Of a stretch of DNA of 38,742 nt, positions 308-15,860 are shown piece by piece. Each line of letters opens with the position of its first letter. Positions within the stretch are counted from its first letter, which is position 1. This stretch comes from an uncultured bacterium. GTDB lineage: Bacteria; UBP6; UBA1177; JAKLFG01. Location of the stretch: NCBI GenBank assembly GCA_937871295.1, contig CALMRE010000254.1:1-38742 (forward strand). Reading direction: 5' to 3'. Both the position numbers and the translations under genes were made by a program. The notes under the pieces are model-generated. The model saw only the letters and a program-made list of their open reading frames with translations. It had not been told where the DNA came from and searched no databases.

Positions 308-952
308 TTACTCCTTCTTCTCTTCGGCCTTCGGCAGACCGAGCAGTTCGCGGAGACGGTCGATATCTAGTTTTAACGGTTCGACATCACCGTGCTTAGT
401 GAAATCGTTAACCAACAACCCATCAAGGAAAGAGCTGAGAATATAGAAATCCCCCTTGTTGCTTATGCTTGAGCGAGTCGTTGTTCCATCGGCATAAGTG
501 ATGACGAGAAACACACCATGCTCCTTCGCGTTGGGGTTGCATTTGGCACAAAGCGTCGAAGTATCAAGCGACATTTTCAGCTTTGACTCGGCGAAGAGTC
601 CGTTGAAGAAATTTATGGTCTCGCTGATCGGCGTGGAGAGAAGGAAGTGATAATCGCTGCTGTATTTGGTGCGCTGACCGCACTTCGGGCAAACATAGTC
701 AAGCGCCTGCGGCATAGCGGGATCGTAGCACATCGCGTTCTTGACGACCTTCGGTTCCGGTTGGGCCTCAAGGTTGCGCAGCATATCCTCTATTTCACAC
801 TTCTGCATCGACTTGATACCTTTAGCCGTGACCTCTTTCCCCGTGCAGATGGTCGTTACCTTCTTTTCGACCGGCGCGGGCTTGTTGTCGGCGGCGAACA
901 GAAGAGCACCCGCGAGGACGATGACCGCGATGATGGAAAGGACCACCGACAT
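308..952 (-). CDS. Hypothetical envelope protein with hydrophobic N-terminus and CxxC pairs (zinc-ribbon-like)
   Basis: 214 aa ORF; N-terminal hydrophobic segment; CPKCG and CAKCN motifs; paralog of 1..305. Confidence 0.7.
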   Translation of the reverse strand: MSVVLSIIAVIVLAGALLFAADNKPAPVEKKVTTICTGKEVTAKGIKSMQKCEIEDMLRNLEAQPEPKVVKNAMCYDPAMPQALDYVCPKCGQRTKYSSDYHFLLSTPISETINFFNGLFAESKLKMSLDTSTLCAKCNPNAKEHGVFLVITYADGTTTRSSISNKGDFYILSSFLDGLLVNDFTKHGDVEPLKLDIDRLRELLGLPKAEEKKE

Positions 953-2384: not shown

Positions 2385-4880
2385 TTACCCGTGGCCGAAG
2401 AATTCGCCGACCCGCGCGGTGACCCGCCGCATCGGGAGCGATGCGAAGGTGATCCCCTCGGGGAGCGCCTGCAAAAAGACGCGGCCGTAACTTTTCTGCA
2501 TGAGCCGCCTATCGAGCACCACCACCACGCCGCGATCCGATTTGGTGCGGATGAGCCGCCCCACCCCCTGTTTGAACTTGAGTATCGCGTGCGGCAGGGT
2601 GAAGAGCGAGAAACCGTCCTCTCCCGTCCGCGCCTCGAGGTTGGCGACGAAGCGGATGATGAACGGATGCGACGGATAGCGGAACGGCAGGCGGACGATG
2701 ATGAGGTTGCGCAGAGAGTCGCCCTTCACATCGATCCCTTCCCAAAAGGTGTCGGTGGCGAGGAGCGAACTGTTGATATCGCCGCGGAACCGCTTCATGA
2801 CCGATGCGATGGCCGCTTCGCTCTGCGTGATGACCGGCAGGGGGAACTCTTTGAAGTATTTGCGCGCCGCCTCGCGGTGCTTGACCGAGGTGAACAGCAC
2901 CAGCGCCCCGCCGTTGGAGGCGAGGATGAGGTCGGCGGCCGCCGCGATGGAGGCCTCCTCGAACTCGGGGTCGTTCGGGTCGGGCATATCGGGCGCGGTG
3001 AAGGCGCGGAGGGCGTTGGCGTAGTCGAAACAGCCGGGGAGGTGCAGGTAGGCGGTCGGCCGGTCGGTGAGATCGAGTCCCGTTTCATGCTTGAGAAAAT
3101 CGAACCCCTCGGGACCGCGCGCCGTGGTGAGCGTTGCCGAGGTGAAGATGATGGTGCGCGCCTTTTCGTAGATGTTTTTGACGAATATCCGCTGGATGTC
3201 GATGGGGGTGATCGATATACGCAGATTGGTCCGCGACACGATCTCGCCCCAGAAGACCAGTTTTTCAGTATCGCTGCTGGTGAAGAAAAGTTCGAAGAGG
3301 TCGTGCATCGAATTGAGCCGCCGGACACAGCCGTTCACCTCGGTGAGGAGCGAGACGATGGTGTCCTCCTCCTTGGTGCGTCTCAGCGGGTCGTGCTCCA
3401 CCGCCTTGCCGATGCGGTCGGCTATCGGGGCGAGCCGTTCGTTGAGGGCGTCGAGGAACTGCGTCACCCGGATGAGCGCCTCGCGCAGTTCGGTGCGGAG
3501 CCGCAGATCGTCGAGTTGCAGATAGTTCTCCTTCTCCGCCTTGAACCGCTCCATGCATTCGGGAATGAGCGAATGGAGGTAGTACGGGATGAAGGCGGCG
3601 ATCTCCATGACCAGTTTCTCGATATCCTTCGCGGTCGCCTTGTCGGCGTAGGCGTCGAGGAGCCGCGCCAATAGCCCGGTGCCGCGCTCGTTGTTGAACA
3701 GGCGCCGGAGCAGTCGCAGGATCCCCGAGAGCGATACCGATTCGCCGAGAAAGCTGACCGCCGACTTGAAGAGATTGTGCGCCTCGTCGATGATGAGGAT
3801 GTCGTACGGCGGCAGGATCCCTCCCCCGTTCTCCTCCTCCATCCGCAGCGACACATCGGCCATGAGGAGGTGATGGTTCACCAGCAGTATCTGCGCGAAG
3901 TTCGCCCTGCGGCGCGACCGGTAGAAGAAACACTGCGGGAAGAAGCGGCATTTCGCCCGTTCGCACGAATGTTCGTCGGAACATATCTCGGCCCAGAGGT
4001 CGGCATCCATCGCGGCGGTCATGGCGCTTTTCGAGCCGTCGTGCGGCATCCCGATCCAGACATCCATCTCGTCGACGATATGACCCTGATCGCTCTTGCC
4101 GTCGAAGGGAAGGTCGAGGTTGCCGCGCCGGAACAGGTCGTATTTCCGCAGACACAGGTAGTTCTGCCGCCCCTTGAGGACCGCCACCGTTATCTTCTCG
4201 AACCCCAGCCGCTCCTTGAGGAACGGGATATCCTTTTCGGAGAGCTGTTCCTCCAGCGCGATGGTCGAGGTGGTGATGACCGCCTTGCGCCCCTCGTTCA
4301 TGGCCACATACAAAAGCGCCGGAACGAGGTACGAGAACGACTTGCCGGTCCCGGTCCCCGCCTCGGCCACGAGCATCGTCCCGGCGTTGACCGCAGCGGT
4401 CGCGGCGAGCGCCATCTCCAACTGCGGCGGCCGGAACTCGTAGTCGGGATAGGACTGCCAGAGCTTCCCCTTCTCGGCGAATATCTCCGTCACCTCTTCG
4501 GCCGTCACCGGATGGAACTCCTCCGCCTTGACCGGTATCCACCGGACTATCGGGAAGATGCGGGTGACGCCGTTGTCGACGATGTAGGAACCGACGCTCT
4601 TCTCGGCCGCCTCGGAGGCGACACTGATGTCGGCGTCGGAGGGACGGATATCGCCGCCGGGATGATTGTGGATGATGACGGCGCCGGGATGGGCCGCCTT
4701 GAGGACGGCGGGCACGGCCGAATCGGTGCCACGGCCGAACAGTTCGACCTCGTAGACGAAGCCGTCGGCGTTGACCGAACCGACGACAAGTACTTCATTG
4801 CCGTCGTTCGCTTCTATGTGATGTTTAAGTAAGGCTATCGCCTCGGGAAGCAGAAAGTCCTCGGGAGAGAATGAGGACAT
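2385..4880 (-). CDS. RadC-like JAB (JAMM) domain fused to DinG/XPD-type Fe-S superfamily 2 helicase
   Basis: 831 aa. N-terminal HNHPGGDIRPSDAD JAMM motif. Helicase motifs VAEAGTGTGKS and IIDEAHNL, a Cys cluster C-SDEHS-C-ERAK-C-RFFPQ-C of DinG/XPD type, TDTFWEGIDVKGD, and QGVGRLIRT. Confidence 0.92.
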   Translation of the reverse strand: MSSFSPEDFLLPEAIALLKHHIEANDGNEVLVVGSVNADGFVYEVELFGRGTDSAVPAVLKAAHPGAVIIHNHPGGDIRPSDADISVASEAAEKSVGSYIVDNGVTRIFPIVRWIPVKAEEFHPVTAEEVTEIFAEKGKLWQSYPDYEFRPPQLEMALAATAAVNAGTMLVAEAGTGTGKSFSYLVPALLYVAMNEGRKAVITTSTIALEEQLSEKDIPFLKERLGFEKITVAVLKGRQNYLCLRKYDLFRRGNLDLPFDGKSDQGHIVDEMDVWIGMPHDGSKSAMTAAMDADLWAEICSDEHSCERAKCRFFPQCFFYRSRRRANFAQILLVNHHLLMADVSLRMEEENGGGILPPYDILIIDEAHNLFKSAVSFLGESVSLSGILRLLRRLFNNERGTGLLARLLDAYADKATAKDIEKLVMEIAAFIPYYLHSLIPECMERFKAEKENYLQLDDLRLRTELREALIRVTQFLDALNERLAPIADRIGKAVEHDPLRRTKEEDTIVSLLTEVNGCVRRLNSMHDLFELFFTSSDTEKLVFWGEIVSRTNLRISITPIDIQRIFVKNIYEKARTIIFTSATLTTARGPEGFDFLKHETGLDLTDRPTAYLHLPGCFDYANALRAFTAPDMPDPNDPEFEEASIAAAADLILASNGGALVLFTSVKHREAARKYFKEFPLPVITQSEAAIASVMKRFRGDINSSLLATDTFWEGIDVKGDSLRNLIIVRLPFRYPSHPFIIRFVANLEARTGEDGFSLFTLPHAILKFKQGVGRLIRTKSDRGVVVVLDRRLMQKSYGRVFLQALPEGITFASLPMRRVTARVGEFFGHG

Positions 4881-4883
4881 CCG

Positions 4884-5162
4884 TTACTTCGTGTTGACCC
4901 GCTGAAGCAGATCCTTACCCGCCTTGAAGAACGGCAGACGCTTGCCGTCTATCTGTATCTTCTGACCCGTCCGCGGATTGCGGCCTTCATACTGGCCGTA
5001 ATGGCGGATGACGAAACTGCCGAACCCTCTGATCTCGATGCGTTCTTCTTTCCGCATCGCGTCGATCATGGCATCGACCATCAGGTTTACGAACTGTTCC
5101 GAGTTACGCTTCGAGAGCTTCGCCTTGTCGGCGAGCACATTGATAAGATCCGATTTGTTCAT
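4884..5162 (-). CDS. HU/IHF family DNA-binding protein
   Basis: 92 aa MNKSDLINVLADKAKLSKRNSEQFVNLMVDAM...IEIRGFGSFVIRHYGQYEGRNPRTGQKIQIDGKRLPFFKAGKDL; canonical GRNPRTG signature. Confidence 0.97.
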   Translation of the reverse strand: MNKSDLINVLADKAKLSKRNSEQFVNLMVDAMIDAMRKEERIEIRGFGSFVIRHYGQYEGRNPRTGQKIQIDGKRLPFFKAGKDLLQRVNTK

Positions 5163-5174
5163 CCACTCCTCCAG

Positions 5175-6350
5175 TTACTCACTGATCCGTGAACTGCCGT
5201 CTTTCATATCGTCTTTTTTTATTTTTTCAAGTATTTTTTGTACCTTCGGGTTTTTTACGACACTGAACGAGTAAAGCACCCCCATGTCCGAAAGCACATA
5301 AAAAGAACCCTCCGCCCATACCCCGCCGCTCGAAACGCCCTGCGGGATACGGGTGCCGGTCAGCCGGCCGGTGAGCGCTCCGTCCCAGACCGATACCGTG
5401 CCGAGAGAATCGGTAAAAAAGGCATACTCTCCTCCGGCGACATAGCCGGTCACGAAACCGGTCGTGGCGAACAGGCGCCGGGAGACCGTCCCGTCCTTCG
5501 CGAGCAGCAACACCCCTCCCTCGCCGTACGCGAGCACCTCGCCGCCGGCAAGTTCGACGAGCGTAAGATTCCGCATCTCGGCCCGCTTGGTGACCGACCC
5601 GTCGGCCACCTGTATCGCACCGCCCCCTTCGCCGTTCGAAAAAAGCAGGTTCCCTTCGGCTCCGGGCAACAGCGAGAAAATATCATGGAACTCCTTTTTG
5701 TCGAAAACAGCCGCCGACCCGCCGGTCTGGTACTTATAGTACGGAAGCAGTTCCTCGACGCCGCTCGACGCATCCTTCTTCAGCAGGAAGAAGATGATCT
5801 GACCGTTCGAAAAACCGAAGGCGGTCTTGTCGCCGTAAACGACCGGCCGGCCAAGTAGCGCGTAGGAAAGCGGATCCTCCCCGTAAAAAGTATAGTTGGC
5901 GCGTATGGCGCCGGTGAGCGGGTCGACCAGATAAAGGGTGTTCTCGGCGAACTGGAGGAATATACCGCCGGATGACACCAGCGGCGACGAAACGATCGGC
6001 GACTTGCCCGGCACATTCCAGATCTCGGTCAGATCAGGCTTGAGCAGGCGGACCGTATTCGATTCACAGACAAGGATGCCTCCCGGGGCCGCGACCGGCG
6101 GAATAAGGAACTCGCCGCTGAAACGCCGTTCACCCAACCGCCGGCCCTCGCGGTCGAACGCGACGATACGGCCGCTCCGGAGCGCCGCATAGAGATGCCC
6201 CTCGTGGTAAAACACCCCCGCGTACTCACGTTTTTTTATGCTGGCGAATTCGTTCTTGAGCGGCGCCGCCCAGTTGACGAGCAACTCCTCGGCCGCCGCA
6301 GGCGCGCACCACAGCAGGGTCAGCAGTATGATGGAGAAAAGTCTTTTCAT
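5175..6350 (-). CDS. Exported PQQ-type beta-propeller repeat protein (BamB-like)
   Basis: Start at MKRLFSIILLTLLWCAPAAAEE (signal peptide); repeated AFDREGRRLGE / LVDPLTGAIRANY / LLAKDGTVSRR propeller-blade patterns. Confidence 0.75.
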   Translation of the reverse strand: MKRLFSIILLTLLWCAPAAAEELLVNWAAPLKNEFASIKKREYAGVFYHEGHLYAALRSGRIVAFDREGRRLGERRFSGEFLIPPVAAPGGILVCESNTVRLLKPDLTEIWNVPGKSPIVSSPLVSSGGIFLQFAENTLYLVDPLTGAIRANYTFYGEDPLSYALLGRPVVYGDKTAFGFSNGQIIFFLLKKDASSGVEELLPYYKYQTGGSAAVFDKKEFHDIFSLLPGAEGNLLFSNGEGGGAIQVADGSVTKRAEMRNLTLVELAGGEVLAYGEGGVLLLAKDGTVSRRLFATTGFVTGYVAGGEYAFFTDSLGTVSVWDGALTGRLTGTRIPQGVSSGGVWAEGSFYVLSDMGVLYSFSVVKNPKVQKILEKIKKDDMKDGSSRISE

Positions 6351-6360
6351 CCGGCGACCG

Positions 6361-7134
6361 CTACGACGCCTTCTTTTCTTCGGGCTTCTCTTCCTTCTTC
6401 TCTTCGGGGAGACGACCGGCCACCTTCGAAACAAGGGGGCTTTCGGGGAACTCGGCCTTGAGTTTCGTGAAATATTCGACCGCCTTGGCCGGATCGTTCA
6501 TGCGATCATACGCGGTACCGATGTAATAAAGGGCAAAATCCCTGTAAAGTTTCGCATCCTTGATCGTGTAGTAACGCTCCCATACTTTTATCGCTTCGGC
6601 ATGATCGTTACGGTCGAGATGGCAGTAAGCCTCCCCTTCGTAGGCGCCGAAACGGATGTCGGCCGGTATCTTCGAATCACCCTGCAACTGCTTGAACAGC
6701 GTGATCGCCGAGTCGAACTCCTTGAGCCGGTAGTGCGCCTTGGCTTTATAGAAGAGCGACACATCGCCCATGAAGGAGCCCTTGAGCGTGGAAGCCGCCT
6801 CGTCGAACTTCGCGAGCGCCTGCTTCATGCGGCCCGTTTCATCCAGCGCCGCCGGAGCCTCTTTTTCCGCGTCGCCTTCCCAGAGCGCCAGCGCCTGCAC
6901 GAACGGGGTCGCTTTGGCTTCGCGCGCCTCGGCGAACCAGTTGGAGATCAGTATCGCTATGACCACCGCGCCGATGACCCCCGCGACCGAACCGATGATG
7001 AAATAGGGATGGTTGGCCAACTGATCCATCATTTTCTGGCCGCCTTCCTGAAAGGCATCCTTCTCGGCGAAATTCTTCTCGCTTTCCTTCTCGGGTTTGG
7101 GCGCCCTGAAACCGCGCGTCTTCAGATACGACAT
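6361..7134 (-). CDS. Single-pass membrane TPR protein (YfgM-like)
   Basis: 257 aa; TM helix HPYFIIGSVAGVIGAVVIAILISNWFA after a short N-terminus, then TPR-like helical repeats (KAHYRLKEFDSAITLFKQL, ALYYIGTAYDRMNDPAKAVEYFTKLKAEFPESP). Confidence 0.75.
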   Translation of the reverse strand: MSYLKTRGFRAPKPEKESEKNFAEKDAFQEGGQKMMDQLANHPYFIIGSVAGVIGAVVIAILISNWFAEAREAKATPFVQALALWEGDAEKEAPAALDETGRMKQALAKFDEAASTLKGSFMGDVSLFYKAKAHYRLKEFDSAITLFKQLQGDSKIPADIRFGAYEGEAYCHLDRNDHAEAIKVWERYYTIKDAKLYRDFALYYIGTAYDRMNDPAKAVEYFTKLKAEFPESPLVSKVAGRLPEEKKEEKPEEKKAS

Positions 7135-11516: not shown

Positions 11517-13268
11517 CTAAAGTATCAGCGAACAGCCGCCTGATCCCTCTTCATAGAGCGCCGGCGCCGCGTCGTCGGGAGCGGCGGCCTGCTCATCAAG
11601 CGCGATCCCGTCGTCCGGGACGGCGCCGTCATCCTGAGAAGTCTCGTCGGACGCAACGCCGGTATCGTTCTGCGGATCGACGTCGAAAAAGGTATCGTCG
11701 GGTGCGCCGTCGTCGGGCTGAGGAGCGTCGTCTGAACCGCCCGATGTCACGCACAGGCCGTTATGGCATGTTTCGCCGGGGTCGCAGTCGTCGTCTATCG
11801 TGCATTCGGGACTCCCGCCGCAGAGTCCGCTTTTCGCGTTCTCCACCATCGCCCGCACATCGAGTAGCCCGGCGCCGTAGCAGGCGGCGGCATTGCCGTA
11901 GGGACAGGGCTGGAGCGCGCCCGCCGCCGCCGACAGTTTCACGCACTGGATCGCCTGCTGGGCGGTAAGATAGGGCGCCGCCGAAAGCATGAGCCCGACC
12001 GCACCCGCAACCACCGGCGAAGCGGCCGAGGTGCCGTTGAAATATTTCGTGTAACTCAGATCGGGCAGATCGGGATAGCCGTTCTCGCTGTAGATGGGGT
12101 TGAAACCTTTATTGGCCGCGGTCGCATCGGTGGTCGTCAGACCGACGATGTCGCTTTCGTCGCCCCCCGCCGGCGCGGCGATATCGATCGCGACGCCCCA
12201 GTTGGAATAGTCGGTGATGGTCCCGTCCTTGCGCAGGGCGGAGACGGTGAGGATGTCGTCGGTGGCGAGCGTCGCATTGAGCGCGGTGTCGCAGTGTGAA
12301 TTGCCCGACGCCCAGACCATGACGGTGCCGAGGCCGCCGCGACCGTTCTGAAGACCGTAGGCGATCGCCTCGCTCATGAAGTTGTCGGCCGCCACCGCGA
12401 TGCAGTTCCCGGAACTGTCGGTGTCGGACGCGGCGCTCCACGAGTTGTTGACGACCCACGCCCCGTTGTCGACCGCCCATTTGAGCGCGTCCAGTTTGCG
12501 GTTGGCCGCCACCTGCCCGAGTTCGTTGCCGATGTATTTGATGGGCAACAGACCGCAGTTCCAACAGACGCCGGCCACCCCGATACCGTTGTCGCCGGTG
12601 GCGGCCGCCAGTCCCGAGACGGCGGTCCCGTGGGCCATGATGTAGGGGTTCGGTTCGAGAAGCGTTCCGTTCATATTGGGATCGACATAGGGTTCCGAGG
12701 GGACGAAACTCAGGCCGAGGAGCAGATGGCTCCAGAGATCGGGATGCTGGGTGTCGACCCCGCTGTCGACCACCGCGATGACCGAGGCGGGGTTCCCCGT
12801 TTCCAGTTCCCATGCCGCGTCCGACCGGATCATCGGATGGTGCCACTGTTCGACATAGAACGTGTCGTTCGGCGCGGTCGCGTGGAGGCGGGGTCGTTCC
12901 ATCCACACCGGCTGGGCCCACCGGACCAGCCCGCGCTCCACCAGTCGCCGCGACAGCGCGAACAGGTCGGTAGCCGCCGCCGGACGGGCCACGCCGTAGA
13001 CCGGCCAATCGGCGTGCGGGCGGATCATCGTAAGGCCGAACCGCGCCAGTTCTTTCTCCTGCGCCGCGACGCTCACCCCGTCAGGGAAGCGGATCGCCAC
13101 CTCGCCGGTCAGCGGCATCGCCGCGCCGCCCGCCACGGAGACCGCCGCCCGCGACGCTTCGACCCGCAGTTCCAGGCACCGTTCCGAACCGTGGAAATAG
13201 TAGCAGGCATCGGCGGCCTGAAGGATCGCGATGCTGAAAAAGAGAAAGAAAAAAGATACGGATCGCAT
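11517..13268 (-). CDS. Secreted subtilisin-like (S8) serine protease with Cys-rich module and acidic C-terminal tail ending GGCSLIL
   Basis: GAGGAGG RBS upstream of 13268; signal peptide; catalytic motifs VIAVVDSGVDTQHPD, HGTAVSGLAA, FNGTSAASPVVAGA; ECTIDDDCDPGETCHNGLCV; D/E/A/P-rich tail. Confidence 0.93.
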   Translation of the reverse strand: MRSVSFFFLFFSIAILQAADACYYFHGSERCLELRVEASRAAVSVAGGAAMPLTGEVAIRFPDGVSVAAQEKELARFGLTMIRPHADWPVYGVARPAAATDLFALSRRLVERGLVRWAQPVWMERPRLHATAPNDTFYVEQWHHPMIRSDAAWELETGNPASVIAVVDSGVDTQHPDLWSHLLLGLSFVPSEPYVDPNMNGTLLEPNPYIMAHGTAVSGLAAATGDNGIGVAGVCWNCGLLPIKYIGNELGQVAANRKLDALKWAVDNGAWVVNNSWSAASDTDSSGNCIAVAADNFMSEAIAYGLQNGRGGLGTVMVWASGNSHCDTALNATLATDDILTVSALRKDGTITDYSNWGVAIDIAAPAGGDESDIVGLTTTDATAANKGFNPIYSENGYPDLPDLSYTKYFNGTSAASPVVAGAVGLMLSAAPYLTAQQAIQCVKLSAAAGALQPCPYGNAAACYGAGLLDVRAMVENAKSGLCGGSPECTIDDDCDPGETCHNGLCVTSGGSDDAPQPDDGAPDDTFFDVDPQNDTGVASDETSQDDGAVPDDGIALDEQAAAPDDAAPALYEEGSGGCSLIL

Positions 13269-13367
13269 AGGACCTCCTCGGTCTGTTTTCCGGCAACGCA
13301 TCCCGGCGTCTTATCTCTGACCGACGAACGGGAAAAAAAGTTCCGGTGGAAAGGGGGGAAACGGAGG

Positions 13368-15860
13368 TCAGATGAGGATAAGCGCGCAGGCGGCGTCTTC
13401 TTCTTTCGGTTCCGGCATCGTGAAGGGTTCGTCAGGCGTTTCGCCGTCGGGCAGGGGCTCCTCTTCCGCGACCTCGGCATCGGGTGCAACCCAATCGTAC
13501 GGAACACAACGACCCTCTTCATTGCAGTAGGCGTCGTCGGCGCCATCGATGCCGCCGATGCATTCGCCGTCGCCGCGGCACGGGCGGAAGCAGACCCCCT
13601 CTTTTCCCTGCCAGCGGACATGACATTTGTAATAGTCGGCCTCGGGACGGCAGTCGTCGTCGCCGGTGCAGGATCCGGCGCAGATATAGGCGCGGGAACG
13701 GGAACTGTAGATGCACTTGGCGTCGTCGGGGCAACCGTTGTCGTTCCACTGATCGCACTGCGTGAAACAGTAGCCCCCCGGCTTGGAGGTGTCGCAGTAG
13801 GCGCCCGAATGGATGCAGTCCTCCTCGCTCTGGCAGGGACCGCCCACCGGCGAGGGATCCATGCGGCAGCGCGACTCGATGTCGCAGTAATTCCCTTCGG
13901 GGCAGTCCTTGTCGGTATCGCAGTAGGGCAGACAGACGCCGTAGATATCGTCGGTGCAGTAATAGCCTTCGCGGTCGCAGGGGGAAAGCGCTCCGCATTC
14001 GCGCAGGCAGACCAGTACCCCCTGATCGACCGTGAGGTACGAACCGTCGGGACAGGGCTCCGCCTCGGGCCACAACAGACAGTAATTGTTCGGCATCGTG
14101 TAGCCCATGACCTCTCCGACGCAGGCCACCTGTTCGGGCAGAAAATCCGGCATCAGGCAGTCGGCATCGTCCGTGCAGGCATGCCCCACCGTGAATTCCC
14201 CCTTCAACCCCTCGTCGACCCAGCCGTCGCAGTCGTCGTCCAGTCCGTTGAGTGTCTCTTCCCCGACCAACAGCGGGTCGCACATCGGGTAGCCGAGCGC
14301 CAGACGCGCCGCCTTGTGGAGATTGACCCGGCCGTGGCCGAATTTCGGCGAGAAGCCCGCCTCATTCCAGAACCCGGTCTCGGGATGTATCTTGTCGGCG
14401 CTCGTGTAGAGGATATTCACCGCCTCCTCGAGCGTGAGTTCGGGATTGAGCGAGAAGATGAAACCCATCGCGCCGGTGGCGAAAGGGGCCGCCGCCGAGG
14501 TGCCGCTGAAGGTGGCGGTCCAGTCGTCGCCCAGTCTGCCCGCGCCGGGGATGTGGGTCGTCGCGATGCCGATGACCGGATAGGAAGAGAGCGACGGCGT
14601 ACTGATCCCTAACTCCATTCCCCAGTTCGAGTAGTCGATGTGGGTGTCCCACGCCGAGGTGGCGCCGACGATGATGAGCCGGTGGGAGACCGGCACCCCG
14701 TCGCGTTCGAATTCAAAGATATGCTGGAACATACCGTCATAGTGGGCGTTGACCCCGTCGTTGCCCGAGGCGTAGAGTATCGCGCCCCCCTTGCCGTTGC
14801 GGCCGTTCTTCATGAAATGGGCGTGCGACTCCTCGACGCCGGGCATCATCGGCACTTCGCCGTATTCTGAGGTGACGCCGAAACTGCAGTTGACCGCGAC
14901 GATCGCGGGATCGGCCACCAGCCGGTCGTAGGTCTTGAGATACATCTCTTCGCTGATGGCGCTCCCCTCGACCCCTTCGAGCGCAAGCACCGGATAGATA
15001 CCGCACCACGGACAGACGCCGGTAACGCCGATATCGTTCGATTCGGCCGCCGATATGCCGGCGCAGTCGGTGCCGTGCGCGTAGGTCGCCAGCGCGTAGC
15101 CGGTGGTCCCGTCGGGGATATGCGGATCGCCGCCGTCGACATCGCGGATGGCGTCGTAGCCTGGATCCATCTTGCCGCCGTCGCCGACGAGGTCGGGATG
15201 GGTCGTCACGACGCCCGAATCCATGATCGCCACTTTGGTCGCGTACTTCGCCGGCTCGAACTGTACTTTCATCAGGAAGCGCAGGGCATCCTCGAAGCGG
15301 ATATCGGCGCGTGCGAGCGTTTCGACCGGATCACCGTAGGCGTCGATGTAGGCACCGCGGTTATGGAGCGCCCACTGATATTCCGCGTAGAACTCGTCCT
15401 GCGGCAGGGCAAGCCGCGGACGAACCTCTCGCACGAGGTTCGGGAAGGCCCATCCGCGTCGCGCTTCGGTGATGCGCCGTGCCGTTTCGACCGCATCCCC
15501 CGCGACGGTGAATTTGTATAGGTTGTAGCCGGGCAGTATCTCGGCGAGCGTCAGACCGAAATCGCGCGCAAGCACGGCGATGTCGCCCGTTCCCCGCCAG
15601 AAAAGTTCGGCCCGCGCGATGAGGTAGGCCGCGCCGTAGCGGTAGACCGGCAGGCCGCCGTCCCGCGCCAGCAGCGTGTAGCGGTCGGCGCCGGCATTCC
15701 AACGCCCGACGACCGGCTCATCGTTCGCAACCCCGCCCAGCACCACCGACATACCCTCGACGCGCTCCAGTGCGGTCGCCCTGCCGTCGGCATGGTAGAC
15801 CGGCGCGGCGGAAAGCGAGAAAGCCGCCGCAGAGAGCAGGCACAACAGGAACATTCTCAT
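13368..15860 (-). CDS. Secreted subtilisin-like (S8) serine protease with MopE-type motif and multiple Cys-rich modules, ending AACALILI
   Basis: Signal peptide; VAIMDSGVVTTHPDL, YAHGTDCAGISA, FSGTSAAAPFATGAM; NGLDDDCDGWVDEG; repeated C-x(n)-DC...YCD...C modules. Confidence 0.93.
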   Translation of the reverse strand: MRMFLLCLLSAAAFSLSAAPVYHADGRATALERVEGMSVVLGGVANDEPVVGRWNAGADRYTLLARDGGLPVYRYGAAYLIARAELFWRGTGDIAVLARDFGLTLAEILPGYNLYKFTVAGDAVETARRITEARRGWAFPNLVREVRPRLALPQDEFYAEYQWALHNRGAYIDAYGDPVETLARADIRFEDALRFLMKVQFEPAKYATKVAIMDSGVVTTHPDLVGDGGKMDPGYDAIRDVDGGDPHIPDGTTGYALATYAHGTDCAGISAAESNDIGVTGVCPWCGIYPVLALEGVEGSAISEEMYLKTYDRLVADPAIVAVNCSFGVTSEYGEVPMMPGVEESHAHFMKNGRNGKGGAILYASGNDGVNAHYDGMFQHIFEFERDGVPVSHRLIIVGATSAWDTHIDYSNWGMELGISTPSLSSYPVIGIATTHIPGAGRLGDDWTATFSGTSAAAPFATGAMGFIFSLNPELTLEEAVNILYTSADKIHPETGFWNEAGFSPKFGHGRVNLHKAARLALGYPMCDPLLVGEETLNGLDDDCDGWVDEGLKGEFTVGHACTDDADCLMPDFLPEQVACVGEVMGYTMPNNYCLLWPEAEPCPDGSYLTVDQGVLVCLRECGALSPCDREGYYCTDDIYGVCLPYCDTDKDCPEGNYCDIESRCRMDPSPVGGPCQSEEDCIHSGAYCDTSKPGGYCFTQCDQWNDNGCPDDAKCIYSSRSRAYICAGSCTGDDDCRPEADYYKCHVRWQGKEGVCFRPCRGDGECIGGIDGADDAYCNEEGRCVPYDWVAPDAEVAEEEPLPDGETPDEPFTMPEPKEEDAACALILI

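Follow-up and report, generated by a model that had tools for sequence, protein, structure and literature searches.

Described relatives of the fusion

The role of DinG-type helicases on DNA is well understood, and RadC has, to our knowledge, no settled function to date. RadC fusions to DinG/RAD3-like helicases are mentioned by Iyer et al. 2017 (PMC5512222), who draw in part on such fusions to propose a nuclease activity for RadC (see also PMC3482391). Where the chemistry of a JAB domain is known, it is that of a peptidase acting on ubiquitin-like proteins (PMC5512222, PMC300881). The fused proteins were named as a subgroup, 'RadC-like DinG', by Cheng 2025 (PMC11981726), who modelled the protein of Desulfuromonas soudanensis, pointed to a Glu, two His and an Asp as the putative metal centre, gave the lack of HolC in the organism as a trait of the subgroup, and stated that no experimental work on it exists.

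The protein analysed here is encoded in the window, by which we mean the whole stretch of 38,742 nucleotides that was examined (contig CALMRE010000254.1, from an uncultured bacterium). It shares with the RadC-like DinG proteins of Cheng an N-terminal RadC-like domain joined to a DinG helicase in one chain, the E/H/H/D centre (E29, H71, H73 and D84) and a YoaA-like helicase; it differs from them in nothing of kind and is a divergent member. The RadC-like DinG architecture is a genuine one that occurs widely among bacteria and has been described before, and the window protein adds one member to it. The initial annotation had implied novelty, which falls away insofar as the architecture is common and has been described (Iyer et al. 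2017; Cheng 2025), and stands insofar as it has not been experimentally characterised. As the architecture has already been catalogued, our finding adds data and no new system; the new data are the JAMM conservation statistics, the spread of the fusion, its status as the single DinG, its co-occurrence with RadC, and the pairing of an HU gene with the fusion in the window's order.

Other known proteins share parts of this arrangement. ExoDinG (the DinG of S. aureus and B. subtilis; TIGR01407, PDB 8zef) also joins an enzymatic N-terminal domain to a DinG helicase, but its domain is a DEDD exonuclease, whereas the window protein carries a JAMM domain; the exonuclease domain is absent from the window protein, in which the TIGR01407 match begins at model position 244 (Pfam, NCBIfam). 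YoaA and E. coli DinG (NF053712, PRK11747, 6fwr) have a like helicase core and Fe-S domain, YoaA giving the top profile match and DinG the top structural match, but they lack an N-terminal JAB domain, and the window protein falls below both equivalog cut-offs. RadC itself (TIGR00608, PF04002, 2qlc) has the JAB fold and the HNHP(S/G)G...PSxxD motif, but the fused JAB domain forms a separate branch.

Domain content and predicted structure of the window protein

The gene lies at 2385-4880 on the minus strand as one open frame of 831 aa, a reading borne out by its Pfam domains, AlphaFold2 and Foldseek. The initial annotation had reported this continuous frame with no strand; the plus strand at the same positions does not contain it. 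Residues 1-135 (4476-4880, minus strand) form the N-terminal JAB/RadC-like domain, as identified by PF04002, AlphaFold2, Foldseek and conservation, and residues 136-831 (2388-4475, minus strand) form a DinG/XPD-type superfamily 2 helicase, identified by its DEAD, DEAD_2 and Helicase_C_2 matches and by residues conserved in 134 fusions.

Pfam places PF04002 (RadC) at residues 15-90 (25.8 bits, cut-off 22.1), DEAD at 160-222, DEAD_2 at 316-382 and Helicase_C_2 at 651-808 (128.5 bits). The top NCBIfam match is YoaA, a DinG-family helicase, at 488.6 bits against an equivalog cut-off of 680. As the protein scores above the cut-off for PF04002 and below that for TIGR00608, the model of RadC proper (16.9 bits, cut-off 133.85), the domain is RadC-like and not a RadC orthologue.

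The sequence marks of a DinG/XPD Fe-S helicase are present, namely Walker A (K180), the DEAH box (365-368), motif VI (around R775/R778) and four Fe-S cysteines (C243, C306, C311 and C317). The motif HNHPGG...PSDAD runs from H71 to D84, with the Glu (E29) upstream, so that the JAMM/MPN+ signature E-Xn-H-(S/T/N)-H-X7-S-XX-D is complete within the JAB fold (E29, H71-N-H73, S81, D84). In the published form of this signature, E-Xn-H-x-H-X7-S-XX-D, Asn also stands between the histidines in distant relatives (PMC300881). Thus the N-terminal JAMM motif and the helicase with its four Cys had been recognised correctly, as had the position of the RadC-type domain, which is that of the exonuclease in ExoDinG.

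The JAB domain was modelled with AlphaFold2 (23 sequences in the input) as a confident JAB/MPN fold (pLDDT 93.3), and its putative metal site, upstream Glu included, is intact. Foldseek ranked RadC first (2qlc, E = 1.3e-5), followed by Rpn11, CSN5, BubCD and AF2198; as the TM-scores are only about 0.45-0.6, the domain stands as a divergent branch within this fold. For the whole protein (pLDDT 85.9, pTM 0.82) the top match was E. coli DinG (6fwr, E = 1.6e-35), and the closest solved structures by sequence are E. coli DinG (6fwr) and S. aureus DinG (8zef).

Conservation and spread of the fusion

The JAMM site was compared among 134 full-length fusions, many of them retrieved by a scan with an IHNHPSG-type pattern, which biases the set for the His residues; the 65 fusions retrieved by whole-protein or profile search give the same picture. 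E29 is kept in 131 of 134, H71 and H73 each in 133, S81 in 132 and D84 in all 134 (97-100%). The initial annotation had allowed for degeneration of the site in homologs; this is not what we find, and a degenerate site is ruled out for the window protein, with losses in a few lineages elsewhere. Four Fe-S cysteines occur in 124 of the 134 fusions and three in the other 10. JAMM and Walker A lie at an almost constant distance from each other (median 101 aa, SD 1.5; readable in 128 proteins). The JAMM site of RadC-like DinG is probably catalytically competent and zinc-dependent.

The rare losses comprise two fusions in which the Glu is missing (G154, L152; G290, L154) and one in which both JAMM His are lost, RVYP replacing HNHP (G196, L153). 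As the fusion is retained in all of these, catalysis is not indispensable everywhere, and the same proteins are natural tests of helicase function without the hydrolase.

An N-domain profile search of 386 genomes gave matches at E <= 1e-20 in 66, of which 63 lie in ORFs of at least 650 aa; two of the three short ORFs reach a contig end, and the third (G003) is 79 aa long. With the exception of two N-domain fragments (G016 and G356), the other matches all have E >= 4e-9 and lie mostly in frames the size of stand-alone RadC. With matches split this cleanly, the JAB branch to which the window protein belongs is in practice restricted to DinG fusions.

All but one of the 24 other genomes in the window's order carry the fusion gene (two of them as fragments), and the same N-domain was found in 43 genomes outside that order (profile search, E <= 1e-20), in multiple phyla. 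Carriers include Geobacteraceae and other Desulfuromonadales, Spirochaetota (Treponema), Fusobacterium, Halanaerobium (Halanaerobiales), KSB1, Calditrichota, Hydrogenedentota, Acidobacteria, Nitrospirae and Myxococcota, and with most fusions from beyond its order the window protein shares 30-42% identity. Chance or a frame artefact is ruled out, as the same fusion repeats across the order and across phyla, and so is a MAG chimera, as the named isolates Geomonas limicola, Fusobacterium mortiferum and Halanaerobium also carry it. In one Hydrogenedentota MAG (L071), the JAB part, a 256-aa frame, adjoins the helicase part in a different frame, which may reflect a frameshift, an assembly error or a real split.

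In 41 of 45 carriers, and also in the window's own genome, the fusion is the sole clear Helicase_C_2 (DinG-family) protein; the window's genome has a second match, which scores under the cut-off of the family. Of 46 carrier genomes, 37 hold a further gene for an ordinary RadC of about 240 aa, for which the fusion is thus no substitute. A different family of the window's phylum includes two genomes (G025 and G026; L156 and L157) whose DinG lacks the JAB domain, so that fusion and plain DinG coexist within one phylum. A quick tree, disturbed by long-branched plain DinGs, required three label changes, and a single fusion clade was not rejected (p-AU = 0.377).

Gene neighbourhood and candidate functions

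Directly upstream of the fusion lies a gene for an HU-family DNA-binding protein (4884-5162, minus strand; PF00216), whose stop codon is separated from the ATG of the fusion by 3 bp; the two genes probably form one operon. Upstream of HU is a gene for a PQQ/BamB-like beta-propeller protein (5175-6434, minus strand; PF13360), with an uncertain start codon. The order propeller - HU - fusion is conserved in the window's order, HU and propeller each being found at 20 of 22 loci. Among the clustered neighbours within 8 kb of 68 loci, no partner gene is shared across phyla; the neighbourhoods consist of housekeeping genes that differ by lineage.

In our judgement there is an even chance that the window protein is a 5'-3' Fe-S genome-maintenance helicase, the sole DinG of its cell, with a JAMM hydrolase acting in cis from a fixed N-terminal position. 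By analogy with the DinG family, it would unwind DNA 5'-3' in an ATP-dependent manner. At stalled forks, R-loops or sites blocked by protein, the Fe-S motor would travel along single-stranded DNA, with the JAMM domain hydrolysing, in cis, something exposed or held where the motor works. That the domain brings a different coupled activity, as first proposed, is reasonable given a JAMM site that is intact and strongly conserved; the nature of this activity we only infer, as we do the activity, polarity, metal and substrate of the protein. Of the roles initially offered, repair or protein removal is possible for the fusion, and a plasmid or phage role finds no support, the neighbours being housekeeping genes and the fusion usually the cell's sole DinG. 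We lean weakly towards a nucleic-acid substrate, by analogy, because the JAMM domain sits at the position of the exonuclease in ExoDinG and of the endonuclease in EndoDinG; the lean is weak because JAB domains of known chemistry cleave ubiquitin-like proteins. As the domain is tied to a helicase and its catalytic residues are kept across phyla, the fusion is well suited to biochemical work on what RadC-type JAMM domains cleave.

The JAMM domain could instead be a peptidase or isopeptidase, which the helicase brings to DNA-bound or cross-linked proteins that are then clipped for passage of the motor or the fork, and we hold this to be a less probable but serious candidate. Its catalytic signature is identical to that of AfJAMM, CSN5 and Rpn11 (PMC300881), its fold matches include Rpn11, CSN5 and a bacterial BubCD entry, and the DALI search of Cheng 2025 (PMC11981726) matched JAMM peptidases but no nucleases. 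Iyer et al. (PMC5512222) argue, however, that RadC-type JAB domains have no groove for a ubiquitin-like tail, and no ubiquitin-like conjugation genes were seen among the scanned genes neighbouring the fusion. The adjoining HU gene in the window's order would suit a nucleoprotein substrate, but HU is an abundant protein, and the location of its gene may carry no meaning. The more specific proposal, a helicase-coupled JAMM peptidase clipping DNA-bound or cross-linked proteins with the HU pairing reflecting its nucleoprotein substrate, seems to us doubtful; if true, it would mean that bacteria have protease-assisted fork passage within a single chain.

We also consider it rather unlikely that the main role of the JAB domain is structural, or that of a dock for other proteins such as the replisome, with its JAMM residues kept for metal-supported folding. 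The contact of YoaA with HolC is an example of such docking, and both the nearly fixed distance to the motor and the retention of the domain in a few lineages without the full JAMM site are consistent with this. Yet inactive members are rare, and the best-kept residues include the Glu and the Ser, whose part in AfJAMM is catalysis rather than zinc binding (PMC300881).

A CRISPR/defence or mobile-element DinG is so improbable that we treat it as ruled out, for although the PADLOC typeIV_DinG profile gives 411 bits on the window protein and a downstream AAA_14/DUF4143 gene matches PDC-S01, the PADLOC matches reflect general DinG homology, NCBIfam Csf4 scores 91.1 bits against a cut-off of 400, the Fe-S cluster residues are intact, the window neighbours include pil, mutS2 and malic enzyme genes, no cas genes occur among the scanned neighbours of the window fusion, and none of the relatives checked, a genome of the same genus included, has the PDC-S01 gene next to the fusion.

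The PDC-S01 candidate, an AAA_14/DUF4143 ATPase (468 bits), lies just downstream of the fusion at 1031-2284 on the minus strand; it is probably a recent arrival, as that place lacks it in all relatives checked. Two adjoining genes for short proteins (3-305 and 308-952, minus strand), both without a Pfam family, share an N-terminal hydrophobic stretch (xxxVLSIIAVIVLAGxL) followed by a C-rich part, and have the appearance of tandem duplicates. A pair of adjoining subtilase (Peptidase_S8) genes, encoding 594 and 830 aa, occupies 11517-15860 on the minus strand.
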